From Serratia oryzae (GTDB lineage Bacteria > Pseudomonadota > Gammaproteobacteria > Enterobacterales > Enterobacteriaceae): DNA of 64,000 nucleotides. The notes beneath the pieces are model-generated. The model was not told the DNA's origin and did no database searches. It was given only the letters and a program-made list of their open reading frames with translations. This document shows, in pieces, positions 23,853 through 37,280 of this stretch (its first letter is position 1; each line of letters starts with the position of its first letter). The DNA is taken from contig NZ_MOXD01000011.1 in NCBI RefSeq assembly GCF_001976145.1, forward strand, positions 86,316-150,315, written 5' to 3'. Both the position numbers and the translations under genes were made by a program.

Positions 23853-24589
23853 TGACCACGGCCTGGCCTTACCCTCATATTGCTGCTCATCGCGGCGGTG
23901 GTTCTTTGGCACCGGAAAATACCCTGGCGGCGATCGATGTTGGCGCGCGCTACGGTCACAAGATGATCGAGTTTGACGCCAAGTTGGCGCAGGACGGGCA
24001 GATCTTCCTGCTTCATGACGACACGCTCGATCGCACCAGCAACGGTTGGGGCGTGGCGGGCGATCTGCCGTGGGAGAAGTTGGAGCAGTTAGACGCCGGT
24101 AACTGGTACAGCGCGGCATTTAAAGACGAGCGTCTGCCGCTGCTGGCTGAAGTGGCCGAGCGCTGCAAGCGACATGGGCTGATGGCCAATATTGAAATCA
24201 AACCGACTCTGGGCGTTGAGGAAGAAACCGGTCGCGAGGTAGCCTTGGCGGCACGTCTGCTATGGCAGGGGCAAACTGACCCGCTGCTGTCTTCATTTTC
24301 CGTTGAAGCGCTGGCGGCGGCGCAGCATGCGGTGCCGGAACTGCCACGCGGCCTGCTGCTGGATGAGTGGGATGACAATTGGCGTGAACTGACCCGCAGG
24401 CTGGAATGCGTTTCGATACATCTCAACCATAATGTTCTGACCGCCGAGCGGATAAACATGCTGAAGGCGGCTGGGCTGCGTATTCTGGTGTACACCGTCA
24501 ACAGCCCTGAGCGCGCGCGCTTATTGTTGAACTGGGGCGTGGACTGCATTTGTACCGATCGGATAGATTTAATCGGACCTAACTTTTAA
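23849..24589 (+). CDS. ugpQ: Glycerophosphodiester phosphodiesterase UgpQ
   Basis: This 246-residue cytoplasmic enzyme splits glycerophosphodiesters into glycerol-3-phosphate and an alcohol. It shows the GDPD motifs [12 protein letters not shown] near residue 14 and [26 protein letters not shown] near 41-66, with the metal-binding Glu/Asp and catalytic His residues. It has no signal peptide, as expected for UgpQ rather than GlpQ. ATG at 23849 overlaps the ugpC stop; a second ATG follows at once (23852). A repeat compound begins directly after the stop. Confidence 0.93.
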
Positions 24590-24926
24590 ACCCTCGAAGA
24601 ACAAATCTGCGTCAGCAGATTTCAGACTGATGAAAAAGTCCGTTATTAGGGGAAGCGTGCCGAAGGGGGCGTAGCGGCGCAAGCCCCGACAAATTTGCCG
24701 GGAGCAAATTTGAACGACGTTAAGTCGGCCCGTAGGGTGGGACACAAGGATGTGTCCCATCATAGCCCCTCGGTGCGCTAGACCCGGGTATCTCGGGTTT
24801 AGAAGCCATTTTGTTATCAACCTCAATCTGCGTAAGCAGATTTGAACGCTGCTGGCAGCGGTCTCGAAGAGGCGAGTTCCAAGGATGGGCCGAGTCACCA
24901 AGCAACTCGAATTATTTTGGGTATAG
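24590..24926. repeat. Compound repeat: ERIC-type end, hairpin train and inserted MITE-like element
   Basis: This begins at the ugpQ stop and ends in the ERIC-type terminus GCAACTCGAATTATTTTGGG (from 24902). Inside it, a longer copy of the MITE-like element (24621-24823) is bracketed by AAATCTGCGTCAGCAGATTT on the left and AATCTGCGTAAGCAGATTT on the right, as if it had duplicated its target hairpin. The extra 110 bp of the MITE contain their own hairpins (AAATTTGC/GCAAATTT and GGGACAC/GTGTCCC). No gene is visible. Confidence 0.7.
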
Positions 24927-24934
24927 CCACTGCC

Positions 24935-24948
24935 TAGGATTATTCTTT
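24935..24948. promoter_or_regulatory. RcsAB-box-like site upstream of the chaperone-adhesin cassette
   Basis: TAGGATTATTCTTT, whose complement AAAGAATAATCCTA differs at two positions from the RcsAB box TAAGAATATTCCTA. It differs by one base from the sites before the pilin gene. A weaker partial match, TAAGAATATGCTA, lies at 24972-24984. It lies 186 bp before the chaperone start. Confidence 0.5.
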
Positions 24949-24985
24949 TTCCCTATTACTATTGACCGCTCTAAGAATATGCTAC

Positions 24986-25114
24986 TATACCCGTCATACT
25001 TCAGGTTGCATGAGCGTTGGCTTTATTCGCTCCCCCAGTCACATTATTAATGTAAGCTCTCGGGGATTCGCTGCGTCACCACCTTCTTTGCAACTCGAAT
25101 TATTTAGGCTATAT
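24986..25114. repeat. ERIC element, near full length
   Basis: A 129-bp element running from TATACCCGTCATACTTCAGG to TGCAACTCGAATTATTTAGG, with the ERIC core in between (CCCCCAGTCAC ... GTAAGCTCTCGGGGATTC). Length and core agree with the standard 127-bp ERIC. It ends just before the fimbrial chaperone gene. Confidence 0.85.
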
Positions 25115-25133
25115 AGCCCAAGTGGTTTTCATT

Positions 25134-25928
25134 ATGCAAAGTAAAGGCTCAGGTGTTGTGATATATCGTAAAGATTTTATGTTGGCTTTATTTTTGGTCG
25201 GTATTTTATTGAGCCTAATATTTCCATCTTCAATGCATGCGGCAGTGCAATTTGATAATACGCGTATTTTTTTTTCCGCTAAAGAGCGTGAAGTTAGCAT
25301 AAGATTGATAAACAAGGGAAATGAGTCAGCATTGATGCAGGCTTGGGTTGATAAGGGTAATCCCGATATACAACCAGATAATGCTGATGCACCGTTTCTC
25401 GTTATGCCTCCGATATTTCGTTTAGATCCTAAAGAAGCACAAAGCGTACGTATAATATTTGCAGGGGAAAAATTACCTCAGGATCGGGAATCACTCTACT
25501 GGCTTAACTTTCTTGAGATCCCAGCTATTCCAAAAGAGAATGGCGTTGATTTTATTCAGTTTGCATTGCGTTCTCGGTTTAAGTTGTTTTATCGGCCGGT
25601 AGGTCTGCCTGGCAATCCATCTGAAGCGATTACACAGGTAAGATGGCGCATCATTGAACAAGATGCAGGTCGCTATGCGCTCAAAGGTGAAAATCCCACG
25701 CCATACCATATTACCTATCGATGGCTAAAACTATCCTATGGCGGTAAAGATTATGATATTGATGTGGGAATGATTAATCCTTTCGCACAGCGGGAGTACA
25801 CGCTAGGTGAAATTTCTGCTGAGGAAAAAAATGGAAGAATTCGCTATCGTGGGGTGGGTGACTACGGTATTTTGCCAGAGCAACAGGCTGTTGTGAAAAA
25901 GGTATCGGTGAATAGTACCAGTCCTTGA
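25134..25928 (+). CDS. Periplasmic fimbrial chaperone (PapD/FimC family), cassette copy
   Basis: This roughly 264-residue protein is a periplasmic chaperone that folds pilus subunits by donor-strand complementation. A signal segment (MLALFLVGILLSLIFPSSMHA) precedes AVQFDNTRIFFSAKEREVSIRLIN. Family blocks are RLDPKEAQSVRIIFAGEKLPQDRESLYWLNFLEIP and RSRFKLFYRPVGLPGNP. The start is uncertain: ATG 25134 is used, but ATG 25179, directly before the signal segment, is also possible; neither has a strong ribosome site. It is a paralogue of the second chaperone (30745) and lies directly before the adhesin gene, away from the usher. Confidence 0.85.
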   Translation: MQSKGSGVVIYRKDFMLALFLVGILLSLIFPSSMHAAVQFDNTRIFFSAKEREVSIRLINKGNESALMQAWVDKGNPDIQPDNADAPFLVMPPIFRLDPKEAQSVRIIFAGEKLPQDRESLYWLNFLEIPAIPKENGVDFIQFALRSRFKLFYRPVGLPGNPSEAITQVRWRIIEQDAGRYALKGENPTPYHITYRWLKLSYGGKDYDIDVGMINPFAQREYTLGEISAEEKNGRIRYRGVGDYGILPEQQAVVKKVSVNSTSP

Positions 25929-25973
25929 AGTATGAAGGGTTATAGTTATCTTTAATTGTTTTTGAGGGTTGTA

Positions 25974-26996
25974 ATGCGAAAGATAGGGTGGCAATTTCTA
26001 TTGCTATGTTCGGTGTTAGCCATAGTCAAGCCAACTTTAGCTGCCTGCTCATTTACGGGTGGTGGGGCTGGTAATGCGATAATAGATTTACCCTCAACAC
26101 CAATTTCGATTCCAGATGATACAGCGAATGGTACGGTGTTATGGAGCACAGGGTGGAAATGGTTTACAACAGGCCAGATAAATTGTACCACCAATGGTAA
26201 AGTTATGGGGATACTTTCCAGTGAAATCAGTACGCCCTCTCCTATTCCTCGAGTTCGTGCGACCAATGTACCAGGCATTGGTGTTGCTATCTTCTGGTGT
26301 AATAAAAACGTCACGTCATGTCCCACAGATCCTTGGGGAAGCGGCGCTGTTGGTGGCGGGGTAAGTAGCGGGTGGTCTGAGCTATCAGCACTGGACTGGC
26401 AATTTACGGCAGGCAAATATGATCCTTTTACTCAGGTTTGGGTCTACCTGATCAAAACGGGCAAAATTGAACCTGGTGTACTTTCAATCGCCGGGTCAAG
26501 TCTGGCTCAATACGATGGATTGGCCACCAGTAGAATCACTTTTGCTGGCACAACGAATGTTTCCAGCCGTTCTTGCGTGCAAACTAGCCCCTCTGCCATC
26601 AGGCTTGAACTGCCTACGATAGCAAAAAATGAATTTGGCAAAACGGGAACGCCACTGCTTGCAGGTAAGGAGCGCGCTTTTGATATTACGCTGGCATGCG
26701 ATCCTTCACTTAATGTGAAGTTGAGTATTGCTTCGAACGGCAGTCCAGTGCAAAACGTACTTGCCAATAGTATCGGTGGAAATATGGCAACTGGTGTAGG
26801 TATTCAACTTTTTCAAGGCGGAGTGGGTAGCCAAACTGTGGTGCCGCTAGATGTCAAAAGAGATATAACGACCACGGCGTCTTCCGGTAATAACCAGCCT
26901 GTGACTATCCCGCTTACTGCCCGCTATTATAAGTTCGGGGATATTGTTCCTGGTCAGATCCGGGTTTCTACCACCTATACGCTCACTTACGAATAA
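25974..26996 (+). CDS. Two-domain fimbrial tip adhesin, FimH-like architecture
   Basis: This 340-residue exported protein has a signal peptide ending near TLA-ACSF, an N-terminal receptor-binding-type domain of about 170 residues with several cysteines, and a C-terminal pilin domain from about residue 185 (SSRSCVQTSPSAIRLELPTI ... TLACDPSLNVKLS ... STTYTLTYE). That layout and the C-terminal beta-strand fit a tip adhesin like FimH. The receptor cannot be guessed; the N-terminal domain is only loosely like FimH. ATG 25974 has GAGGG at 25963-25967. It follows the chaperone by 45 bases, and an ERIC-type repeat follows it. Confidence 0.82.
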   Translation: MRKIGWQFLLLCSVLAIVKPTLAACSFTGGGAGNAIIDLPSTPISIPDDTANGTVLWSTGWKWFTTGQINCTTNGKVMGILSSEISTPSPIPRVRATNVPGIGVAIFWCNKNVTSCPTDPWGSGAVGGGVSSGWSELSALDWQFTAGKYDPFTQVWVYLIKTGKIEPGVLSIAGSSLAQYDGLATSRITFAGTTNVSSRSCVQTSPSAIRLELPTIAKNEFGKTGTPLLAGKERAFDITLACDPSLNVKLSIASNGSPVQNVLANSIGGNMATGVGIQLFQGGVGSQTVVPLDVKRDITTTASSGNNQPVTIPLTARYYKFGDIVPGQIRVSTTYTLTYE

Positions 26997-27009
26997 GAGC
27001 CTATCCCAA

Positions 27010-27162
27010 TATACCCTTCATACTTCAAGTTGCATGTGCGTTGGCTTTGTTACTCGGCCCAGTCGTGGGCCTCGCCCCTTCGGGGCCGCTGCCAGCAGCG
27101 TTCAAATCTGCTCCTGGCAGATGTGTCGCTCCTACCCTGCAACTCGAATTATTTTGGGTATA
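27010..27162. repeat. ERIC-type repeat carrying a hairpin train
   Basis: Bounded by TATACCCTTCATACTTCAAG and AACTCGAATTATTTTGGG. Instead of the ERIC core it contains four adjacent small hairpins: GGCCC/GGGCC, CCCC/GGGG, CGCTG/CAGCG and AAATCTGC/GCAGAT (27055-27126). It directly follows the adhesin gene. Confidence 0.8.
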
Positions 27163-27257
27163 AAGTCTATGAATGAGTAAGACTTTAATCGATTAAGAGC
27201 ACTTTGTGTGCTCGTAATAACTTGCACGTTGAGAAAAGTAAAAAAGACAATACTCTG

Positions 27258-27740
27258 TTATCGTGGTGCTATGGGTGTATCTTGGTCACAATAGATTATT
27301 GTGGTATCTGCTCTTACAAAAACATAACCCGAGGCATTTTGTCTATAAATCTCTAGTTGCAAGCCGCTATTTTCAAGTAGGTAAAAGTCGGGGAGTAACG
27401 CCCTGATAAATGCCGTGTATTTTGTGTTGTAGGGATCTTTAGAAACCAATAGGTAACTGTTTCCTGAACGAGTGTAGTTAAAATCAAAAATGCGATTTAC
27501 CTTGGCAACTTTGTTGCCGTTCTCTATCAGATTAAATGAACCTTTGACTTGGCCTTTACCATTGTTAAACATAAAAGATATTATGCCGGAAATCGTCTTG
27601 TCATCTAACTTTGTTTCAAAATTACTTTCACAAGAGAAATGCTCCATTGGGTAGTTTCGATAATAATCAATGGCGATGTTAGCCACGGCGACGAATGCAA
27701 CGAAGATCAGTAACCATTTTGCTAATTTTACTTTAGTCAT
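27258..27740 (-). CDS. Small membrane-anchored partner of the ToxR-like regulator
   Basis: This 160-residue protein has one N-terminal membrane helix (residues 8-26, WLLIFVAFVAVANIAIDYY) and a periplasmic domain of about 130 residues with two cysteines. I do not recognise a family by sequence. Its start overlaps the preceding winged-helix regulator gene by eight bases. Size, topology and position match the small partners in ToxR/ToxS, PsaE/PsaF and MyfE/MyfF, where the partner stabilises the regulator. That role is inferred, not shown. Confidence 0.7.
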   Translation of the reverse strand: MTKVKLAKWLLIFVAFVAVANIAIDYYRNYPMEHFSCESNFETKLDDKTISGIISFMFNNGKGQVKGSFNLIENGNKVAKVNRIFDFNYTRSGNSYLLVSKDPYNTKYTAFIRALLPDFYLLENSGLQLEIYRQNASGYVFVRADTTIIYCDQDTPIAPR

Positions 27741-28524
27741 AGTTTACCTCTCTTAATAAATTATAAGAGTGGCATCTTACACCGGGTGTGAGTATGTCTT
27801 TATCGCATATCAACATAGAGACCTGCGGTTTAGCTCGTGGCATGGTTAAGTAAACCTTACTCTGTGCTGCGCAAGGTATAGGATAATTTTTGACAAAAGA
27901 AAGGTATCGTTCTTCTGAATTATCCATTTCCGGTTTGAAGATCGCGCAGCCGTTTATCTCGGTAAACTGCGAGTAATGATTAAAATATCCCATATGTGAC
28001 TGATGTTGATGATTCTCCAAGATGAAAAGCGTAACTAGCCCTAGAGCCAACGTGACAAGAATGCCCAGAAATAGGTTTGACGTGAGCCACTTTTGTATTC
28101 CCGTGCTTTGAGCGATCTCTGCGGTAGGGGAGACGGTGGCCAATGTGGCGGAAGGCAGGCTTAAGTCAACGTTATCATTTTCTATTTCTTGCACGCTGAC
28201 CGTATCCGCAATAACAATGCCTTGTTTTGAGATTGTCTTCACAATGCCATCCAGATCCAAACTTTTCAGTGCCTTACGCAGTAATGAAATATTTTGATAC
28301 AGCGTGTTGGCACTAACATAAGCCCCCTGTTTCCCCCAGACAGATTCAAATAGCACCTTCTGACTTATCACACTGTAACGGTTGGCGAGTAAAATTTCAA
28401 AACATCGGCTGGTGGGAGCATTTAATTGCACAATGTCTTGTGGGCTTGTCATAAGATGCCGCCTTAGGTAGTGCAACTCGGGATTGAAGATAACGCTGTT
28501 ATCAATAAGGTAAACTTTGCTCAT
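27733..28524 (-). CDS. Membrane-bound winged-helix regulator (CadC/ToxR/PsaE type)
   Basis: This 263-residue protein has an OmpR-type winged helix at residues 1-105 (recognition segment VYVSANTLYQNISLLRKAL-like, with the wing SKQGIVI), a linker, one membrane helix near 148-168 (FLGILVTLALGLVTLFIL) and a periplasmic domain with four cysteines. Such proteins sense the periplasm and bind promoters from the membrane. ATG 28524 is chosen because GGGG lies six bases before it; an in-frame ATG at 28539 has no ribosome site. It is co-transcribed with the small membrane protein and divergent from the first LuxR-type regulator, in the middle of the fimbrial island. Confidence 0.8.
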   Translation of the reverse strand: MSKVYLIDNSVIFNPELHYLRRHLMTSPQDIVQLNAPTSRCFEILLANRYSVISQKVLFESVWGKQGAYVSANTLYQNISLLRKALKSLDLDGIVKTISKQGIVIADTVSVQEIENDNVDLSLPSATLATVSPTAEIAQSTGIQKWLTSNLFLGILVTLALGLVTLFILENHQHQSHMGYFNHYSQFTEINGCAIFKPEMDNSEERYLSFVKNYPIPCAAQSKVYLTMPRAKPQVSMLICDKDILTPGVRCHSYNLLREVNYD

Positions 28525-29052
28525 CGCTACCCCGATCATGTGCAGTTTTTTATAGATGACTCGATTAACCAGTCATGCTTCACGTTACTTTGAGATTGAG
28601 TGTATTGCTTGGCTCGAAAGGGCCTCACTATTGCAGGCTAACGCAAGTGCTACATAAAAAGCGCTGTGAGCGCTTTGTATGTTGTTGCTGTCGGCAAGCA
28701 ATTCGCATGATTTTGGCTTTAGTCAGTGTAACTATATCTTAAATTGCCAGATTAAGAAAATTCCATAACGGAATTTTTTTCTTAATTAAGAAAAACAACA
28801 TCGATTATGCTATTGATTTTAAATGTTTTTATTTTTTCATCCGCTGGGATCTAAAAAAGCCTTATTCAGAGTGAAATTGATTACGAATTAACCGCCCACT
28901 TCCCTATCATTCACTTCGCCAACCCGTTATCCGGCAAACTGGAAGTCGCAGCCTCGCTCAGTAGGCGTATTGAATGTACTGGCTTCACTTGTCGAAACAC
29001 GGGGATTTCTAAAACGTAATGATGATTTTTGAATGAAAACGCGAGGGCTTGG
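28525..29052. other. Divergent control region between the two regulators
   Basis: About 530 bases without a gene. It holds three dyads: AAAGCGCT-GTG-AGCGCTTT (28658-28676), an imperfect repeat TTAAGAAAATTCC/GGAATTTTTTTCTTAA (28752-28785), and the perfect 20-bp palindrome TTTTTCTTAATTAAGAAAAA (28776-28795). TAAGAAAATTCCAT (28753-28766) matches the RcsAB box at most positions. The region is strongly AT-rich and looks like a regulatory hub. Confidence 0.6.
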
Positions 29053-29736
29053 GTGAACAACAACCACTTTACTGTTAGTACCACTTGGTATCCTGAGAAT
29101 ATCATGGTGTTTGATAAGAACTTACTCTCGAGAAGAGCCATTATAGCTACCTTGAGAGAGGCTTATCCGACAAGTAGGATGAGTAAGAGTAATCGGTTGA
29201 GTGAGATATTGGTGTCGGTTACCGATGAGGCTTTGTTACAGCAGCCTACTCTATTGGTGATCGATTTTTCTGGCGACATAGAAGCTCCATTATTCTTCTT
29301 TAATCATTTTAGGGGATGGTTTGCTGAGAATCCTGACTCTCAGTTAAAGGTATTGCTATATACCTCAGTGGAGGATTGTTTCTTTATTTCAGCAATGGCG
29401 AGCTTTATCTCCGGTGGAATACTCTTGAAGTCAGAATCGCTGCTCTCCATGCCAAAAATGCTGAATACCTTCAGCCAGCCTAGCCAAGTTGTATTGAGTG
29501 ATGCGGTGCGCAAGTTAGTTGGTGAATATAGTTTCCCCTTGTTGACCGATAAGGAGTTACAAGGTTACTTTGCTGAGCTCGCCGAGCATCGGTTGGTATT
29601 AAGCTCACTAAAAACGGCAAGTAAGTATAAAACTTTCTATAGCAGGCGTTATAACACAATAGATAAGTTAGGATTTAAAAATGTGAAGCAATATTATCTG
29701 TATATTTCTAAAGTAAGCGGCATGTTGTGCAGATAA
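29053..29736 (+). CDS. RcsB/LuxR-type transcriptional regulator, copy 1
   Basis: This 227-residue protein combines a receiver-like N-terminal domain with a LuxR-type C-terminal helix-turn-helix (SKYKTFYSRRYNTIDKLGFKNVKQYYLY). Receiver landmarks survive: FDKN at the first strand, VIDFSGD with the likely phospho-acceptor Asp, LLYTS, and GGILLKSES with the conserved Lys; the usual acidic pair at strand one is reduced to one Asp. GTG 29053 is chosen because GAGGG (29043-29047) is five bases away and the resulting length equals its paralogue at 34629 (228 residues). An in-frame TTG at 29029 lacks that site. It probably controls the fimbrial genes. Confidence 0.78.
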   Translation: MNNNHFTVSTTWYPENIMVFDKNLLSRRAIIATLREAYPTSRMSKSNRLSEILVSVTDEALLQQPTLLVIDFSGDIEAPLFFFNHFRGWFAENPDSQLKVLLYTSVEDCFFISAMASFISGGILLKSESLLSMPKMLNTFSQPSQVVLSDAVRKLVGEYSFPLLTDKELQGYFAELAEHRLVLSSLKTASKYKTFYSRRYNTIDKLGFKNVKQYYLYISKVSGMLCR

Positions 29737-30157
29737 TCATTTTTGATTATGTCAATCTTAAGTTTCTCTGTGGTTGTTAAATAAAAGTGCATATATTAAC
29801 ACTTGTTTTATGTTTTAGGATTTTTCTTTGTTTTTTATCCATTCTTTAGGAATATTCTTTGGTTTTATGCGCTTTTGATAGGAATATTCTTTAAGAATAA
29901 TCTATGAATATAGCTTTTTTGAGGGTATATTATGCAGCGAGCTTAGGGTAGTGGCGTATCAAATGAGCGCAGTAGAAAAGCAATAAATAAGGTAACGACG
30001 TTTATTGTTGAATGTTAACTCTGCTCGTATCACATTGTTTCCGATATACAACATAAAACTTCATAAATTTTGTAAGCCTCATTTTAGCATGGGGTGGTTT
30101 TTTGTATTCGGTAGACGCAGTTTATGACTTGGTAAATAAAAAATTTGGAGTTTTAGT
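29737..30157 (+). promoter_or_regulatory. Pilin promoter region with phased RcsAB-box-like repeats
   Basis: Sites resembling the RcsAB box stand in the same orientation at 29816-29829 (TAGGATTTTTCTTT), 29847-29860 and 29879-29892 (both TAGGAATATTCTTT), 31 and 32 bp apart, which is about three helical turns. A fourth, TAAGAATAATCTA, abuts the third at 29892-29904. A likely -10, TATATT, is at 29926-29931, with no good -35, as expected for an activated promoter. The leader to the pilin ATG would be about 220 bases. No invertible-element ends were seen. Confidence 0.65.
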
Positions 30158-30697
30158 ATGAAAAATAGTTTCTATGTTAGCGTTATGACAGTAATGGCTT
30201 TAGGCTTGGCAACAAATGCTTCAGCGGTTGATGGCACTATTACTTTTGAAGGTGTGGTTAACGATACAACCTGTACTTTGGATACCAATAGCCAAAATAT
30301 GTCAGTACTCCTGCCATCGATTACTTCAACAGATTTCACTGGGGCGAATACTGCGGCTAGTTCATCTGCCGTTAAATTCACCCTGAGTGCTACAGGTTGC
30401 GATGTTGGTGCGGTGAGCGCTTCTGTATTGTTTGCTACCGGCGGTAATGTTGATAGCACCAACGGTAACCTGAATAATAGCTTTGCGGGTGGTACTGACG
30501 CACAAATTCGTATTTACAAGGCCGATGGTACTACACCAATTAACCTGGCTAACTACGGTGAATCTGCAAGCAATAAAGGTAATATCGTGAGCGGTAACAC
30601 GACTATTGATTTCTATGCCAACTATTTTAGTAAAAATGCTAAACCTACTGCAGGTGTGCTGAAAACCAGCATCCAGTACAGCATGCAGTATCTGTAA
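30158..30697 (+). CDS. Major fimbrial subunit (type 1-like pilin)
   Basis: This 179-residue pilin has a signal peptide ending ATNASA-VDG, followed by GTITFEGVVNDTTCTL, the first cysteine of the pilin disulfide pair (the second is in SATGCDVG). The C-terminus ends YSMQYL, the beta-zipper with the penultimate tyrosine recognised by the chaperone. It is exported, handed to the chaperone and polymerised through the usher. A hairpin terminator follows at once, so it should be made in excess over the assembly proteins downstream. Confidence 0.92.
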   Translation: MKNSFYVSVMTVMALGLATNASAVDGTITFEGVVNDTTCTLDTNSQNMSVLLPSITSTDFTGANTAASSSAVKFTLSATGCDVGAVSASVLFATGGNVDSTNGNLNNSFAGGTDAQIRIYKADGTTPINLANYGESASNKGNIVSGNTTIDFYANYFSKNAKPTAGVLKTSIQYSMQYL

Positions 30698-30705
30698 TCC
30701 CTGTA

Positions 30706-30729
30706 CCCCGGGGTCATTCCCGGGGTTTT
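30706..30729 (+). terminator. Attenuating hairpin between pilin and chaperone genes
   Basis: CCCCGGG (30706-30712) pairs with CCCGGGG (30719-30725) and is followed by TTTT. Such hairpins after the pilin gene of fimbrial operons limit read-through and set the subunit-to-assembly-protein ratio. Confidence 0.75.
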
Positions 30730-30744
30730 CATAAAGGTTAAATG

Positions 30745-31485
30745 ATGAAGTCTCTTTTTTTTCTTTGTAGCACACTGCTACTGAGTGTTGCTACCTATTT
30801 GTTTTTTCCCAGTATGGCCAATGCTGCCGTATCGATTGATGGCACCCGAATTGTTTATCCTGCTAAAGCAAGCGAAATAACAATAAAAATGGTCAACAAG
30901 GGAAATACGCCCTCATTAATGCAAATTTGGATAGATCGCGGTAACCCGGAAACTCAGCCTTATGATAGTGATGTTGCTTTTGTCATTACACCACCGATCG
31001 TCCGTATAGACCCTAAGAATGGGCAAAGTGTACGTCTGATGTTCACCGGTGAAAAATTACCACAGGATCGTGAAACCCTGTTTTGGTTTAACGCATTGGA
31101 AATTCCGCCAGTGAGTGCCGATCAGGATAAAAGTTCGTTGCAGATTGCCGTACGGTCTCGTTTAAAATTATTCTATCGTCCAGCCGGATTAGCGGGTGAT
31201 GCGGCGAGTGCGCCAAACCTAGTGAAATGGCATATTGTCCCCACGGCGAAAGGTGGGTATGTACTACGAGGGCAAAATCCGACGCCGTATTACGTGACCT
31301 ACAGCAAATTGAATTTACAGACTAGTGGACAACATTACGATCTAGGTAATGGAATGATTGCTCCTTTATCAAGTGAGGAATTCAGCATTAAAGGTATGCA
31401 GAGTTATTCTAAAGGTGCTCAGCTTATTTATCGTCCTATGAGTGACTATGGCGTTGGCGCTGAAAACAAAACAACTGTTCATTGA
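30745..31485 (+). CDS. Periplasmic fimbrial chaperone (PapD/FimC family), operon copy
   Basis: This 246-residue chaperone has a signal peptide ending SMANA-AVSIDGTRIVYPAKASEITIKMVNKG. Blocks RIDPKNGQSVRLMFTGEKLPQDRETLFWFNALEIPP and RSRLKLFYRPAGL include the conserved Arg and Lys that anchor the subunit carboxylate. It should serve the pilin and usher of its own operon. ATG 30745 gives better spacing to AAAGG (30733-30737) than the adjacent ATG at 30742. Its paralogue lies at 25134, before the adhesin. Confidence 0.9.
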   Translation: MKSLFFLCSTLLLSVATYLFFPSMANAAVSIDGTRIVYPAKASEITIKMVNKGNTPSLMQIWIDRGNPETQPYDSDVAFVITPPIVRIDPKNGQSVRLMFTGEKLPQDRETLFWFNALEIPPVSADQDKSSLQIAVRSRLKLFYRPAGLAGDAASAPNLVKWHIVPTAKGGYVLRGQNPTPYYVTYSKLNLQTSGQHYDLGNGMIAPLSSEEFSIKGMQSYSKGAQLIYRPMSDYGVGAENKTTVH

Positions 31486-31536
31486 TAATTGAAGATAGGT
31501 ATATCAGGTATGTGTGGTCAGGTAAGAGAGACTTCG

Positions 31537-34104
31537 ATGGATCGTGGTAATAAAATTTCTTTTACAAGAATATCGCCTCTTATCGTTTGGCTTACGCTTT
31601 GCTCATCATGCTTAACCTATGCAGTGACAACTGTTTCTGCTATTGCTGATGATGATCTTTCTACACGTTTCAATACGGATTTTTTGGTTAATAGTAACGG
31701 TGTTCCGTTAGACTTGTCTGCTTTTGAACGCGGTAATCCTGTTAATTCCGGTAACTATCGGTTAGATATTTATATCAATACAAAATCTATCGGAATACAG
31801 CAAATCACCATTGGTAAAGATGAACATAATGAAACACACTATTGTTTCCAAATGGCTGGCATTGAGCGATTAGGCATTGATTTTGATAAGTTGCCTAATA
31901 GAGAGCACTATGATCCGCAAGGGAAAGAGTGTGTGGATATTAAGAAATTGATTCCTGACAGTAGCATTGATTTTGAGCAGTCTAAGCTGAAGCTGAATGT
32001 CAGCATTCCACAAGCCTATATGCAGCAGTTTGATAATAATTATATTCCCCCAGAGAAAGCAGATTCCGGTGTGACTGCGGCATTTATCGATTATAACGCT
32101 AATGCTTGGCGTGCATTAACTCAGGGGAATATCCACACACAATATTATTTAGGGATTAATACTGGCTTTAATCTGGCAAATTGGCGCTTGCGCCATAATG
32201 GGTATTACAACCATACCATCGGTTCTATGGGCGATCAGCGGAAATATACAGCGATCAGCAGTTACTTGCAGCGTGATAGCGCTGTGCTGAGAGCTCAGTT
32301 GACGCTTGGACAGTATTATACCGCCCCCGATTTGTTCGACAGTGTGTCTTACAGTGGGATCCAATTGGCTTCCGATGAGCGCATGTTACCTGACTCCCAA
32401 CGAGGTTTTGCGCCAACAATACGTGGCACTGCAGAGAGCAATGCGAAGGTCACCATACGCCAAGGTGGCAATGTTCTTTATGAAACCAGCGTATCACCGG
32501 GACCGTTCATGATCGACAAGCTGTATGGCAGTGGTTACGCCGGTGATATGGAAGTGACTGTCACCGAGGCTGATGGACGTAAGCGTACTTTTGTTGTGCC
32601 GTTTGCCACAGTGCCGCAGTTATTACGGCCAAGCGTCGCGCGTTTCAATGTCGTGCTAGGGAAATATCGTGACGATCGCTTGAATAAGACACCAGAATTC
32701 TTTCAAGGAACTTATCAGCGTGGGATATCTAACCTGCTGACGGCGTACAGCGGAGCTATTGTATCTCAAGACTATCAGGCTATGCAGGCCGGTCTGGCAT
32801 TGAGTACCACGTTGGGTGCCTTTGCCGTAGATGCAACGCAATCCCATGCCGTTATCCCTGCGTTGACAACCGAAGGTTCTCAACAGGCGCGCGGGCAGAG
32901 TTATCGTTTCACCTACAGTAAGCTGCTGGAAACGACCCAAACCAACTTTACGGTGGCGAGTTATCGTTTCTCAAGCAAGAACTACTACAGCTTTAGCGAC
33001 TATGCACAGAGTGCAGGCAGAGCGGATAATGGTATGCCCGCGCCTTCTCGCCAGCGCAGCCGCGTACAGGCGAACGTCAGCCAGAACTTAGGGGAAGATT
33101 TTGGTAGCTTTTACTTGAGCGGATCGATTCAGAACTACTGGAACGCCGATCAGGGCAGGGATATGACGTATCAGTTGGGGTACTCCAACGCCTTTGGTTG
33201 GGGCGGTTTTAACCTATCTGCAGGACGTAGTCGCTCTGCATACGGCGCAAGTGAAACGCAGTACATGCTGAATTTCTCGCTACCTCTGGGGCGTAGCGCA
33301 AGTTCCCCTCATTTGAATACGTCGCTGACGCGCAGCACTCAGGGAGGATGGAGTGCGCAAAGCGGCATTTCTGGTTCATTAGGTGAAGAAAATCAGGTCA
33401 GTTACGCGGCCTACGCCAGCCGATATTATAACGGCAATGTTAATAGCTATGGTGGAAACACACAATACCGTACGGATAAGGCAATACTGACAGGCAGCGT
33501 CAGCAACGGTAGCGGATACTCGCAATATGGGTTGGGTACCAGTGGGAGCATGGTGATACATCCTGGTGGTGTTACGCTGAGCCAGGTACAGGGTGAAACC
33601 AAAGCCGTCATTTCAGCACGTGGTGCCAGTGGTGCTGCGTTACTTAACAATAAAGGTGTTTACATTGACACCCATGGCTATGCAATTGCTGCTGGTTTAA
33701 CACCTTACAGAGAAAATACGGTCGCACTTGATTCCAAAAATATTGCAGACCAGGTGGAACTGAAAGTCACAGAGCAGAAAACGGCTCCCCAGTACGGGGC
33801 GGTCGTTATGCTTGATTACCCGACGGTGAAAGGCTACCCGTTGTTATTGGTTGTGCGTGATGAGACGGGGAATCACCTTCCTTTAGGGGCCGAAGTTTTC
33901 GACCAACAGGGTAATAGCACAACATTTGTTGGCCAAGGAAGTCGGGTATTCCTGCGTGCTACCGAGTCGCATGGGCGTGTACGTATCCAATGGGGGCAAA
34001 GTGCCGATCGTCAATGTCTGGCGGATTATGTTTTGCCAGAAGGGGTTGCGAAGGAAAAAACCAATATGGTGCACTTGACGGCCATCTGCAAACGCCTAGG
34101 TTAA
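31537..34104 (+). CDS. Outer membrane fimbrial usher (FimD/PapC family)
   Basis: This roughly 855-residue usher forms the outer-membrane pore through which pilus subunits are assembled. After a signal peptide (about residues 1-35) comes the N-terminal chaperone-binding domain (FNTDFLVNSNGVPLDLSAFERGN), the beta-barrel with plug, and the C-terminal domains ending in the paired cysteines of CLADYVLPEG ... TAICK. ATG 31537 with AAGAGAGA upstream is preferred; in-frame starts at 31489 and 31510 are also open and would add an unlikely leader. It closes the pilin-chaperone-usher operon; no adhesin follows it. Confidence 0.92.
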   Translation: MDRGNKISFTRISPLIVWLTLCSSCLTYAVTTVSAIADDDLSTRFNTDFLVNSNGVPLDLSAFERGNPVNSGNYRLDIYINTKSIGIQQITIGKDEHNETHYCFQMAGIERLGIDFDKLPNREHYDPQGKECVDIKKLIPDSSIDFEQSKLKLNVSIPQAYMQQFDNNYIPPEKADSGVTAAFIDYNANAWRALTQGNIHTQYYLGINTGFNLANWRLRHNGYYNHTIGSMGDQRKYTAISSYLQRDSAVLRAQLTLGQYYTAPDLFDSVSYSGIQLASDERMLPDSQRGFAPTIRGTAESNAKVTIRQGGNVLYETSVSPGPFMIDKLYGSGYAGDMEVTVTEADGRKRTFVVPFATVPQLLRPSVARFNVVLGKYRDDRLNKTPEFFQGTYQRGISNLLTAYSGAIVSQDYQAMQAGLALSTTLGAFAVDATQSHAVIPALTTEGSQQARGQSYRFTYSKLLETTQTNFTVASYRFSSKNYYSFSDYAQSAGRADNGMPAPSRQRSRVQANVSQNLGEDFGSFYLSGSIQNYWNADQGRDMTYQLGYSNAFGWGGFNLSAGRSRSAYGASETQYMLNFSLPLGRSASSPHLNTSLTRSTQGGWSAQSGISGSLGEENQVSYAAYASRYYNGNVNSYGGNTQYRTDKAILTGSVSNGSGYSQYGLGTSGSMVIHPGGVTLSQVQGETKAVISARGASGAALLNNKGVYIDTHGYAIAAGLTPYRENTVALDSKNIADQVELKVTEQKTAPQYGAVVMLDYPTVKGYPLLLVVRDETGNHLPLGAEVFDQQGNSTTFVGQGSRVFLRATESHGRVRIQWGQSADRQCLADYVLPEGVAKEKTNMVHLTAICKRLG

Positions 34105-34119
34105 CAACGAGGCTGATGA

Positions 34120-34239
34120 CTTTGTTCTTACGCTGGCAGAGGTTTTATTGGCGGAATGGCGCAGGCGCTGACCAGCCTATGCTATCGAGAAAGTGCCAAA
34201 CAAATCACCTTACAACTGAATATCAGCGTCAGTAAATAA
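34120..34239 (+). pseudogene. Possible remnant of a coding gene after the usher
   Basis: In the frame of 34141 a short reading, GFIGGMAQALTSLCYRESAK and onward to ITLQLNISVSK, ends at a stop at 34237-34239. It has no start codon of its own near the front and no ribosome site. The composition looks protein-like, so it may be the tail of a lost gene, perhaps the subunit or adhesin that once followed the usher. I could not assign a family. Confidence 0.25.
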
Positions 34240-34306
34240 ATTAACTTGGCATTGATCATGACAATCCAGAGGCTATCTCCTGATGGTGCAGAAGTCTCTT
34301 ATTGGG

Positions 34307-34506
34307 CATGCCAAAAATAATTCGAGTTGCGTGTAGGTAGCAATTGAATGGATCCCCAGGAGCTTACTCAATTAAGTGACTGGGGTGAGTGACAAATCTG
34401 CGCAAGCAGATTTGAACGCTGCTTGCAGCGGCCCCGAAGGGGCGAGGCCCAATATGGGCCGAGTAACGCAGCCAACACCCAAGCAACTTGAAGTATGAAA
34501 GTTATA
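34307..34506. repeat. ERIC element with an inserted hairpin train
   Basis: The left end (CCAAAAATAATTCGAGTTGC) is degenerate, and the right end reads GCAACTTGAAGTATGAAAG. The ERIC core CCCCAGGAGCTTAC/AAGTGACTGGGG lies at 34353-34388. After it, four hairpins stand in a row: AAATCTGC/GCAGATTT, CGCTGC/GCAGCG, CCCC/GGGG and GGCCC/GGGCC (34393-34460). It separates the usher from the second regulator. Confidence 0.8.
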
Positions 34507-34628
34507 ACATCAAGTCTATTTTAAATGCACGTGGGGAGGGGGCGTGTTGGTTAAATTTTTTTGGGGCTGCAGTGTTTGCCTTTTTTTAAAACGGAGGCTA
34601 TAGGTGAGAATTATCAAAGGGGATTGGG

Positions 34629-35315
34629 TTGAATATTGAGATGGAGCTTTCTGCTTTTAAAACATGGTGTCCTAATAATATCGTTATTTTTGACAAAAAT
34701 GTATTTTCAAGGGGTGCGATTGTCGATACGGTAAGCGAAATTCATCCTGTGAGTAATATTCTATGCTTTGACTGTATCATTGAGGCATTGGATTTCACCA
34801 TGCAGGAGTGCGATCTTAAGGTATCCTCATTGATTATTGTCGATTTTTCCGGTGATAAGAATTCACCATTATTTTTCTTTAGTGCGATGAGTGCCTATTT
34901 TTCACATAACCGGCATCGTAATTTAAAAGTGCTGATATATACTTCTATTGAAGATCGTTTTTTTATCTCTGCAATGGCGAAGTCTATATTCGGCGGTATT
35001 GTTCTTAAGAGTGAATCCATTTTGTCAATGAAGCGAGTGCTTTGCTCTTTGAATCATGATAGCCGAGTGGTATTAAGTGAGAGGGTCAGTGGTTTATTAC
35101 TGGATTATCGTGTACCTAATGTATCCTATAATGAACTTCAGGGATATTTCTCTGAGATCGGCGAACATCGGTTGATACAGAGCTCGCGCAGAATTGGCAG
35201 TAAATATAAAACATTTTATTCAAGAAGATACAATACAATCGCCAAAATAGGTTTTAAAAGTGTCAAACAGTATTACCTCTATATTTCGAAAATTATTGGT
35301 GAACTGTCTGAATGA
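34629..35315 (+). CDS. RcsB/LuxR-type transcriptional regulator, copy 2
   Basis: This 228-residue paralogue of the regulator at 29053 has the same design: receiver-like domain with FDKN, LIIVDFSGD (likely phospho-acceptor Asp), LIYTS and GGIVLKSES, then a LuxR-type helix-turn-helix SKYKTFYSRRYNTIAKIGFK. The TTG start at 34629 is supported by AAAGGGG (34616-34622) six bases upstream; the ATG at 34641 has no comparable site. It is the last gene of the AT-rich island. It probably binds the RcsAB-like boxes, alone, with its paralogue or with chromosomal RcsB. Confidence 0.78.
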   Translation: MNIEMELSAFKTWCPNNIVIFDKNVFSRGAIVDTVSEIHPVSNILCFDCIIEALDFTMQECDLKVSSLIIVDFSGDKNSPLFFFSAMSAYFSHNRHRNLKVLIYTSIEDRFFISAMAKSIFGGIVLKSESILSMKRVLCSLNHDSRVVLSERVSGLLLDYRVPNVSYNELQGYFSEIGEHRLIQSSRRIGSKYKTFYSRRYNTIAKIGFKSVKQYYLYISKIIGELSE

Positions 35316-35464
35316 AAACGAGGGAGAAACAGGGCGTGTAGGGGGATAACAGCGTTCAAGGTTCTGTCTGGGCATTCGTTGTTCACTGGTAAACCATTTT
35401 TCTGTCACCTAGCTTCCTACGTTCCGTTACAATCGCCTTTTCAGATCTTTTAGGTGAATTTAAC

Positions 35465-36325
35465 GTGTGGCTTCTGATTATTACCACCATTTTGTGGGCT
35501 TTTTCTTTCAGCCTGATCGGCGAATATCTGGCAGGCCACGTCGATAGCTGGTTTTCGGTGCTAATGCGCGTCGGGTTGGCGGCATTGGTGTTCCTGCCGT
35601 TCCTGCGCTGGCGCAATATCCCACTGAAAGTGATCCTGCTATATATGCTGGTGGGGGCGTGCCAGCTCGGCATTATGTACCTGCTTAGCTTCCGCGCTTT
35701 TTTGTACCTGACGGTGCAGGAATTCCTGCTGTTCACCGTGCTGACGCCGCTGTATATCACGCTGATTTATGATCTGATCAGCGGCCGCCGTCTGCGCTGG
35801 GGGTATCTGTTCAGCGCGCTGCTGGCGGTGCTGGGAGCGGCAATCATCCGTTACCATCAGTTGAGCGAGCATTTCTGGTTTGGGCTGTTGTTGGTGCAGG
35901 CGGCGAATATCAGTTTTGCTATCGGCATGGTGGGGTACAAGCGGCTGATGGAAGTGCACCCGTTGCCGCAGCACACCGCATTTTCCTGGTTCTACCTGGG
36001 AGCGCTGGCGGTGGCGGTAATCGCCTGGTACCTGTGGGGCAACCCGAACCAACTGCCAACGACCCACCTGCAATGGGGGATCCTGGTGTGGCTGGGCGTG
36101 GTGGCTTCTGGGTTGGGTTACTTTATGTGGAACTACGGCGCAACGCAGGTGGATGCCGGCACGCTCGGCATTATGAACAACATGCATGTGCCCGCCGGGC
36201 TGCTGGTTAATCTGGCGATCTGGCAGCAGCAGCCGCACTGGACCAGCTTTATCATCGGCGGCGCGGTGATTGTGGCTTCGCTGTGGGTGCATCGCCGCTG
36301 GGTGGCTCCGCAGGCCACCCAGTGA
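35465..36325 (+). CDS. bioP: Biotin transporter BioP (YigM, EamA/DMT family)
   Basis: This 286-residue integral membrane protein has about ten hydrophobic helices in two EamA repeats. It matches E. coli YigM in length and in blocks such as LIITTILWAFSFS, LLFTVLTPLYITLIYD and GTLGIMNNMHVPAGLLVNLA; YigM imports biotin across the inner membrane. The start is GTG at 35465. It is convergent with metR, the same neighbour as in E. coli, which supports the assignment. Confidence 0.88.
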   Translation: MWLLIITTILWAFSFSLIGEYLAGHVDSWFSVLMRVGLAALVFLPFLRWRNIPLKVILLYMLVGACQLGIMYLLSFRAFLYLTVQEFLLFTVLTPLYITLIYDLISGRRLRWGYLFSALLAVLGAAIIRYHQLSEHFWFGLLLVQAANISFAIGMVGYKRLMEVHPLPQHTAFSWFYLGALAVAVIAWYLWGNPNQLPTTHLQWGILVWLGVVASGLGYFMWNYGATQVDAGTLGIMNNMHVPAGLLVNLAIWQQQPHWTSFIIGGAVIVASLWVHRRWVAPQATQ

Positions 36326-36329
36326 TGGC

Positions 36330-37280
36330 TTAAAGCTGGGGAGCCAGCGGTTTGACGTTGATAAAGCCCGCACCGGGGCGGGCGGCATCGCGCACGAACG
36401 GCAGATGTTCGCAGGCGTGCTGACGAGCGGAGCGGATAAAGGCTTCAATCACCGCCTGGCGCTGTTCGCCGTCACGCACGGCGGCATATAACCGGCTCCA
36501 CAGGCCGTCGCCCAGGGTTTTGGTCACCACCAGGCCCTGGCGTTCAAAACTTTCCACCACCCAGTGCGGCAACGCGGCAATCCCCATGCGTGCCGACACC
36601 ATCTGAATCAACAGCAGCGTGTTATCGACACTTTTCAACGTTGGGCTGACGCCTGCCGGTTGCAGAAAATGCCGCCAGATATCCAGCCGCTGGCGCTGTA
36701 CCGGGTAAATCATCAGCGTTTCATCGCACAAATCTTCTGGTTCAATGCGCGGTTTGTTGGCCTGAGGATGATCGGGGGCCAGCACCAGCCGCACCTCAAA
36801 ATCGAACATCGGTGAATAGTGCAGCCCGCTGCGCGGCAGGATATCTGAGGTTAGCACCACATCCAGTTCACCCTGTTGTAGAGCGGGCTGTGGATCAAAG
36901 GTGACGCCTGATTTGAAATCCATCACCACCTGCGGCCAGCTCTGATGGAAGCTGTCCAGTGCCGGGGTGAGCCACTGAATGCAACTGTGGCACTCAATGG
37001 CAATACGCAGCGTGGCCTGATGCGGTTCGTGGCAGGCTTGCAGCGCCTGCTGGACCTGTGGCAACACCCGCTCAGCCAACTGCAGCAGGATCTCGCCCTG
37101 TGCGCTAAAGCGCAGTGGCTGGCTTTTACGAACGAACAGCTTAAAGCCCAAACGCTGTTCCAGATCGCTGAACTGATGCGAAAGGGCCGATTGTGTCTGA
37201 TGAAGTTGCGCGGCAGCGGCGGCCAGCGAGCCGGTATTGCGCAATGCCTGCAACGTCCTTAGGTGTTTCAGTTCGATCAT
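36330..37280 (-). CDS. metR: LysR-type methionine regulator MetR
   Basis: This 316-residue LysR-type activator controls metE and other methionine genes, with homocysteine as co-effector. The N-terminal winged helix reads [23 protein letters not shown] ... [20 protein letters not shown], followed by a periplasmic-binding-like effector domain. It is divergent from metE, as in other enterobacteria, and the 105-base gap carries MetJ-type boxes and a degenerate MetR half-site (GTGAACAAATTG, near 37301). Confidence 0.93.

Follow-up and report, generated by a model that had tools for sequence, protein, structure and literature searches.

Candidate RcsAB-like operators in a fimbrial cluster of a Serratia-like bacterium, encoded beside two divergent RcsB-type regulators

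The window analysed here, a stretch of 64,000 nucleotides from the 5.01-Mb genome of a Serratia-like bacterium (G000, C2:86316-150315), contains a fimbrial cluster in which sites resembling the RcsAB box lie before a pilin gene and before a chaperone-adhesin cassette. The order in this island is the chaperone-adhesin cassette (25122-26996), a small gene, a winged-helix regulator gene, the gene for the RcsB-type regulator LuxR1, the pilin-chaperone-usher genes (30158-34104) and the gene for a second such regulator, LuxR2; a GDPD gene flanks it on one side and an EamA-metR pair on the other. The four best sites are most likely operators of the RcsAB or RcsB type and would mark the pilin-chaperone-usher operon and the cassette as one regulon. 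The genes are as follows.

25122-25928, + strand: PapD-type chaperone (Pfam PapD_N, 1.2e-40)
25956-26996, + strand: fimbrial adhesin-like protein (Pfam Fimbrial, 7.4e-12; MrkDrd below the cut-off)
27258-27740, - strand: small protein P0004, a possible PsaF/ToxS-like partner, judged by its place beside P0003; no family above the cut-off
27733-28539, - strand: P0003, ToxR/PsaE/CadC-like regulator (Pfam Trans_reg_C, 4e-09; a winged helix followed by what looks, by eye, like a hydrophobic stretch)
29029-29736, + strand: LuxR1 (P0001), divergent RcsB-type regulator; its true start may be GTG at 29053
30158-30697, + strand: pilin-type fimbrial subunit, presumed major pilin (Pfam Fimbrial, 5.2e-12)
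30742-31485, + strand: PapD-type chaperone (Pfam PapD_N, 3e-43)
31489-34104, + strand: usher (Pfam Usher, 4.2e-158)
34629-35315, + strand: LuxR2 (P0002), LuxR1 paralogue (51% identical); likely start ATG at 34641

The box-like sites are listed with their mismatches, counted on the better strand, to the RcsAB consensus TAAGAATATTCCTA of Wehland and Bernhard as given in PMC4325325.

24935-24948, + strand: box C, TAGGATTATTCTTT, upstream of the chaperone-adhesin cassette; two mismatches
28753-28766, + strand: weaker box-like site, TAAGAAAATTCCAT, in the P0003-LuxR1 intergenic region; three mismatches
29816-29829, + strand: box 1, TAGGATTTTTCTTT, before the pilin gene; three mismatches
29847-29860, + strand: box 2, TAGGAATATTCTTT, before the pilin gene; one mismatch
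29879-29892, + strand: box 3, TAGGAATATTCTTT, before the pilin gene; one mismatch
29892-29905, + strand: weak possible fourth pilin site, TAAGAATAATCTAT, which shares 1 bp with box 3; four mismatches

The four good sites (boxes C and 1 to 3) fit TAGGAWTWTTCTTT, all in the same direction on the + strand, and boxes 1 to 3 are spaced 31 and 32 bp apart, about three helical turns, as the original prediction had it, with correct coordinates for every site. Its description of all six as near-identical suits the sites at 24935, 29816, 29847 and 29879 and does not suit those at 28753 and 29892, with their three and four mismatches. Like the known RcsAB box, from which they stand one to three mismatches away, the four good sites all keep the TAGGA half (TAGGA/TTCCTA), reported to be the RcsB half of that box (PMC4325325); unlike it, they have AAAGAA for TAAGAA in the partner half, and since this changes the outer base, whichever strand is read they keep four of the five positions that are most conserved (T.AG.....TC) and lack the fifth. 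Among the named sites in the window only those at 28753 and 29892 have all five, a pattern that is too common (91 in the window) to serve as a judge of the 29892 site. The 28753 site is situated inside a conserved inverted block, TTAAGAAA/TTTCTTAA (TTAAGAAA...TTTCTTAATTAAGAAA), at about 28751-28790, which may belong to another regulator.

As TAGGAWTWTTCTTT and a second pattern, TARGAHTWTTCTTT, were fitted to the four sites themselves, the published consensus is the fair test, and by it the island sites match closely and above background. At two mismatches or fewer it finds three places in the window, all in the island, so the claim that nothing comparable lies elsewhere in the window holds at that threshold; it fails at three mismatches, where two places outside the island, 12698 and 57387, are added. 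With up to three mismatches allowed there are nine strand matches at seven places, against 2.23 expected (none of 100 shuffles reaches nine, the largest count being eight). Genome-wide, two mismatches or fewer give 37 strand matches, at 31 places by our count (both strands match at six of these), whereas the reversed pattern gives 19 strand matches; three of the 31 lie in the island within 5 kb, where only 0.03 would be expected (Poisson P 5e-6), and the pair 29847/29879 makes up two of only four genomic matches at one mismatch or fewer.

Exact TAGGAWTWTTCTTT has four copies in the 5.0-Mb genome, all in the island; with one mismatch allowed there are 12 matches (four in the island, eight elsewhere); the backwards control gives 11, and it is therefore the exact class alone that is exceptional. 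The pattern TARGAHTWTTCTTT likewise has four copies, all in the island (backwards control two). A looser core, ARGA-N4-TCTTT, proved uninformative, being at genome background with 50 strand matches, four of them in the island, against 56 in the control. Two other fimbrial regions of the same genome, C71:122000-134000 and C3:26000-40000, have no box at two mismatches or fewer and one each at three; thus, the sites do not simply accompany fimbriae.

A scan of the named genome collection for the LuxR pair returned one locus, in Serratia sp. Ag1 (NZ_JQEI01000022; L027), described as a strain from mosquito midgut (PMC4357753). The pair is present in two of seven genomes of the genus, G000 and G006, and as G006 is taken to be the Ag1 record there is one independent relative for comparison; a wider scan of the family gave matches at E ≤1e-4 in seven of 392 genomes, comprising these two and five distant ones (1.2e-6 to 1.9e-5). 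Ag1 has a counterpart at each of the four good spots, with 12 to 14 of 14 bases kept (box 1, 14; boxes 2, 3 and C, 12 each): its pilin boxes are TAGGATTTTTCTTT, TAGGATAATTCTTT and TAAGACTATTCTTT, spaced 30 and 32 bp apart, and its cassette box is TAAGACTATTCTTT (L027 4116). Boxes 1 to 3 keep 38 of 42 bases and the two linkers 15 of 35 (p 1.3e-5), and when 16 bp upstream are added to the linkers these keep 28 of 51 (p 1.8e-4). All eight sites, window and Ag1 together, have TTCTTT, which was a criterion of choice for four of them; TAGGA is replaced by TAAGA in two of the Ag1 sites, and both TAAGACTATTCTTT sites keep all five core positions. TARGAHTWTTCTTT has four copies in G006, three on the island contig, the fourth island site not fitting the pattern (backwards control two). 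At the weak 29892 site Ag1 has the same base at 10 of 14 positions, the five core ones included, and the counterpart of the 28753 site is TAAGAAAATTCTTG.

The conserved sites in Ag1 bear on a reading in which the boxes serve RcsB, on its own or together with RcsA, and the local LuxR-type proteins act elsewhere. The genome does encode RcsB and RcsA, together with RcsC and RcsD (NCBIfam), the best sites are one base off the RcsAB box, and RcsB is reported to bind such a site in vitro with no partner (PMC5829831). However, all four window sites and all four Ag1 sites have TTCTTT where the RcsAB box has TTCTTA, and regulator genes adjoin the sites in both genomes, so that this reading is considered improbable.

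The placing of the boxes relative to two predicted promoter elements is also maintained between the genomes.

24962-24988, + strand: putative cassette promoter, TTGAC at 24962 and TGCTACTAT at 24980 (hexamer TACTAT)
29926-29933, + strand: putative pilin -10 element, TATATTAT (TATATT at 29926), without a good -35 element

The centre of box C is 41.5 bp upstream of TACTAT in the window and of TACCAT in Ag1, where TTGAC and TGCTACCAT are found at the same distances; that of box 3 is 40.5 bp upstream of TATATT in both, and the block 29921-29970 is identical to Ag1 at 48 of 50 positions. The pilin upstream region is 30% G+C, and silencing by H-NS is plausible in such an AT-rich promoter region. RcsB would occupy the TAGGA half of each box and LuxR1 or LuxR2 the other half, AAAGAA here and TAAGAA in the RcsAB box; the three phased pilin boxes, the last centred about 40 bp before a -10 element that lacks a good -35, could then activate the promoter or lift silencing. 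In Ag1 an adhesin gene follows the usher and LuxR2 starts about 120 bp further on, so that LuxR2, if co-transcribed, might provide positive feedback. We infer binding, the identity of the partner, activation and its direction, and feedback from the arrangement of sites and genes.

The predicted pilin leader is about 220 nt long (window 29921-30157) and includes a terminator-like hairpin at 30076-30095 with a T-run to 30101, kept in Ag1 with one-sided pair changes. This hairpin is a possible attenuator; it is not more stable than shuffles.

The original prediction of two RcsB/LuxR-type paralogues in the island is borne out, in that LuxR1 and LuxR2 are, by profile comparison, remote homologues of these regulators. 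Their profile, built with the Ag1 orthologues, aligns with a nine-sequence profile of RcsB, RcsA and other LuxR proteins over 196 columns (hhalign 98.1%, E 1.3e-13), which places them with the REC-HTH LuxR/FixJ family. In an AlphaFold model of LuxR1 (mean pLDDT 70; four sequences) strands and helices alternate in a receiver-like way, and the C-terminal helix-turn-helix region is mostly below 50 and poorly modelled; searches of solved structures with LuxR1, LuxR2 and their profile gave nothing meaningful. When LuxR1 is aligned with RcsB and RcsA of the same genome, the receiver residues D10, D56, T87 and K109 are kept (as D29, D79, T112 and K134), and K201 and S205 correspond to K180 and S184, reported as base-contacting residues of RcsB (PMC5829831). 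Of the 36 GerE proteins above the cut-off in this genome 30 were fetched, and the K180-S184 pair occurs in three of them, RcsA, RcsB and one other (some rows being read by eye). The recognition segment (residues 198-228) is identical between the paralogues at 28 of 31 positions, whereas residues 20-197 agree at 84 of 178 (p 3.7e-6), and LuxR1 and LuxR2 should therefore read the same DNA.

It is on this basis, i.e. the identity of the sites, their rarity in the genome, the Ag1 counterparts with their spacing, the homology of the regulators and the presence of RcsB and RcsA, that the preferred reading rests; within it, the specific proposal that a dimer of RcsB with a local paralogue, LuxR1 or LuxR2, binds each box is given about an even chance. 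Several observations weigh against it. With respect to the regulators, neither LuxR1 nor LuxR2 matches a Pfam family, and with the NCBIfam RcsB model LuxR2 gives no match and LuxR1 one of just E 0.08. In LuxR1 a lysine, K30, stands in place of D11, the second of the acidic receiver residues, and of nine RcsB residues reported to contact phosphates via side chains (PMC5829831) it retains one, T181, and has arginine in place of K186. With respect to the sites, a generic promoter scan does not report the predicted pilin promoter, matches to the consensus are not unique to the island and many of those genome-wide may be background, and 17 of the 30 MatB loci surveyed below, including a second mat locus of a congener (G004, L114), are without a box at two mismatches or fewer. 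Conservation in a related island holds for the four spots, but all four Ag1 sites are three mismatches from the consensus, the 16.7-kb Ag1 stretch has three further places at that level (6093, 7724 and 8317), and the footprint is a single pairwise comparison with one independent relative. In addition, five congeners without the island have 0, 2, 0, 1 and 2 copies of TARGAHTWTTCTTT (backwards control 2, 0, 0, 0 and 0), and one copy alone therefore proves nothing.

Some of these points would suit chance resemblance in AT-rich DNA, namely the low G+C content of the pilin upstream region, the zero to two exact motif copies per island-less genome and the mismatches of the Ag1 sites. Nevertheless, none of 3000 local shuffles of the region 29737-30157 has two places at two mismatches or fewer, one has three places at three or fewer, and chance would not account for the conservation of the boxes in Ag1; for the four good sites this explanation is thus regarded as extremely improbable.

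The near-palindromic form of the four sites is a further difficulty, because of which a homodimer or a LuxR1-LuxR2 dimer fits them equally well. The paralogues may bind in these forms without RcsB, the likeness to the RcsAB box then coming from an inherited RcsB-family recognition helix; the near-identical recognition segments, the invariant TTCTTT and the four receiver residues kept in LuxR1 are all consistent with such binding. Against it, the TAGGA/TTCCTA half matches the one reported for RcsB, and the nearest precedent, MatA, is reported to work with RcsB (PMC7917084). Binding without RcsB is rated a realistic, though less likely, alternative to a dimer that includes RcsB.

The description of the island as a self-contained regulon was too strong. 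The term would not apply if the system depends on RcsB, and the island also encodes P0003, a putative ToxR/PsaE-like membrane regulator, with its small neighbour P0004. Among solved structures the best chains for P0003 come from the 'cholera toxin transcriptional activator' (ToxR; 1.1e-06); its N-terminal winged helix is present, and a putative membrane span was read by eye. It is conceivable that P0003 and P0004 are the pilin activator, in the manner of PsaE-PsaF for psaA, with the boxes of minor importance: both genes have Ag1 counterparts, the nearest solved relative is ToxR, and PsaE and PsaF are both reported to be required for production of PsaA (PMC6657601). That would, however, leave the box conservation and the array unexplained, and the conserved inverted block is in the P0003-LuxR1 intergenic region, not in the pilin promoter; such an account is very unlikely, although it may be that the P0003/P0004 layer and the box layer both act.

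The place of the island appears variable, since congeners G001 and G003 have a membrane-transport gene there (318 or 319 residues; Pfam checked for G001) and G002 has other genes beside EamA, with no GDPD gene within the 9.5 kb taken. Pilin-region DNA, compared with 198 genomes, matched only itself, a paralogous pilin of the same genome and short pieces in nine others; a plasmid search by DNA gave no match, nor did Rfam over 24000-36400 at gathering scores, and no paper on this locus was found in the open-access literature (titles and starts of abstracts, subscription journals being mostly outside). Pieces of a MITE-like repeat (GCAACTCGAATTATTTTGGGTATA and kin, direct and inverted) are situated between the genes at 24825-24928, 25082-25116, 27010-27165 and 34303-34506, one of them ending just before the 24935 box in the window and in Ag1. 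The segment 34104-34240 appears by eye to be the remnant of a chaperone-adhesin pair, lost in the window and intact after the usher in Ag1 (L027 13073-14866).

Other sites of this kind were seen outside the island. The neighbours of three of the five TARGAHTWTTCTTT copies in island-less congeners were looked at, and these lie before a mat operon (G004), before a two-partner-secretion pair (G005) and beside a leuO-like gene (G002). An exact TAGGAATATTCTTT is present 220 bp upstream of the two-partner-secretion pair, an ShlB-type transporter and a TPS-domain protein (G005:C17:22106; L083), and an RcsAB-like site has a similar place in two species, between the 3' end of the leuO-like gene and an AMP-binding-enzyme gene (C64:176970 and G002:C1:5052219; L084). 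The canonical-box matches at C64:176970 and C71:141643 were set aside as candidates for a fimbrial link, which their neighbours do not show. Two RcsAB-like sites at C71:286469 and 286667 (two mismatches; L070) precede a lone GerE-type gene (287054), with a large frame of bacterial Ig-like repeats downstream, from 288431 to the contig end. At C44:415952-416113 (L059) a short GerE protein has the segment KTFYAHRRN, similar to KTFYSRRYN of LuxR1 and LuxR2, and an RcsAB-like site with two mismatches is 3.5 kb from its gene (C44:412416).

With regard to known systems, P0003 may be likened to membrane regulators of the PsaE-PsaF and ToxR-ToxS type in having a ToxR-like winged helix and a small neighbour gene, here beside fimbrial genes; unlike those systems, the island adds RcsB-type regulators. 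Pairs of LuxR-type frames with fimbrial subunits are also found in other genera (L033-L036) and elsewhere in the same genome (C3:28911-37376; L085), and these are distant kin of LuxR1 and LuxR2 (E 1.2e-6 to 3.9e-6 against their profile). By contrast with the island, where no such gene was seen, L033, L035, L036 and L085 adjoin a small recombinase of the phage-integrase family (by Pfam for L033 and L085, by eye for the others), and L085 has no box at two mismatches or fewer.

The closest precedent is the mat (ecp) operon, which MatA (EcpR) is reported to activate with RcsB, independently of RcsB phosphorylation (PMC7917084). In E. coli K-12 TAAGACTATTCCTA is present 341 bp upstream of matA. From 40 genomes with a MatB match 30 family loci, one per genome, were taken with 1.5 kb upstream; the best box has two mismatches or fewer in 13 of them, against none of 30 for the reversed control and 2.2% of Markov sequences, one or fewer in seven and no mismatch at all in three. 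An earlier filter, requiring a recognised LuxR gene upstream, had kept six loci, five of them with a box at two mismatches or fewer; the unfiltered 30 are used here. Congener G004 has three MatB loci, of which that on C18 has a box, that on C98 (L114) has none at three mismatches or fewer and that on C36 is outside the comparison; AAAGAATATTCCTA is upstream of one of its mat operons. The MatB counts and the MatA-RcsB precedent make RcsB-type boxes before fimbrial genes a recurrent design and, with RcsB, RcsC, RcsD and RcsA all encoded, they are consistent with the proposed joining of the island to Rcs. Pairs of places (three mismatches or fewer) within 100 bp occur in six of the 30 loci, at spacings of 21, 93, 31, 63, 48 and 64 bp, and tend towards multiples of 10.5 bp (P 0.018 relative to uniform spacing; island pairs alone 0.016; together 0.002), which is no more than a hint of helical phasing, since the test is post hoc and the sites are weak and come in part from related loci.

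A more general scheme, put forward speculatively, is that an RcsB-family pair outside the Pfam models took over Rcs-type operators with an altered AAAGAA half and, with RcsB, drives a three-site phased array that couples envelope stress to unrelated fimbriae, with LuxR2 giving positive feedback, and that phased arrays are general in Rcs-linked fimbrial promoters. One array, two paralogues and RcsB would also form a compact test case for how RcsB partners set operator choice, and since the regulators were missed by current domain models RcsB partners may be under-counted.

As in mat/ecp, the island has fimbrial genes by a LuxR-type regulator with an RcsAB-like box upstream, and the recognition segment of MatA is also of the form KT-x-Y. 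By contrast, its fimbriae are of the PapD/PapC type with a Pfam Fimbrial pilin, its own genome has no MatB match, and by BLAST the similarity of LuxR1 and LuxR2 to MatA-type proteins is confined to short, weak matches (best E 0.016), so that the cluster is no mat system. It differs further in having two paralogues and a second boxed unit, and three boxes within 100 bp, as in the window and Ag1, occur at none of the 30 MatB loci. The island thus fits a known style of control, an RcsB partner acting on fimbrial genes, in a different setting, and suggests that the joining of fimbriae to Rcs via such a partner extends beyond mat/ecp, having also come about in an unrelated cluster that has divergent partners of its own.

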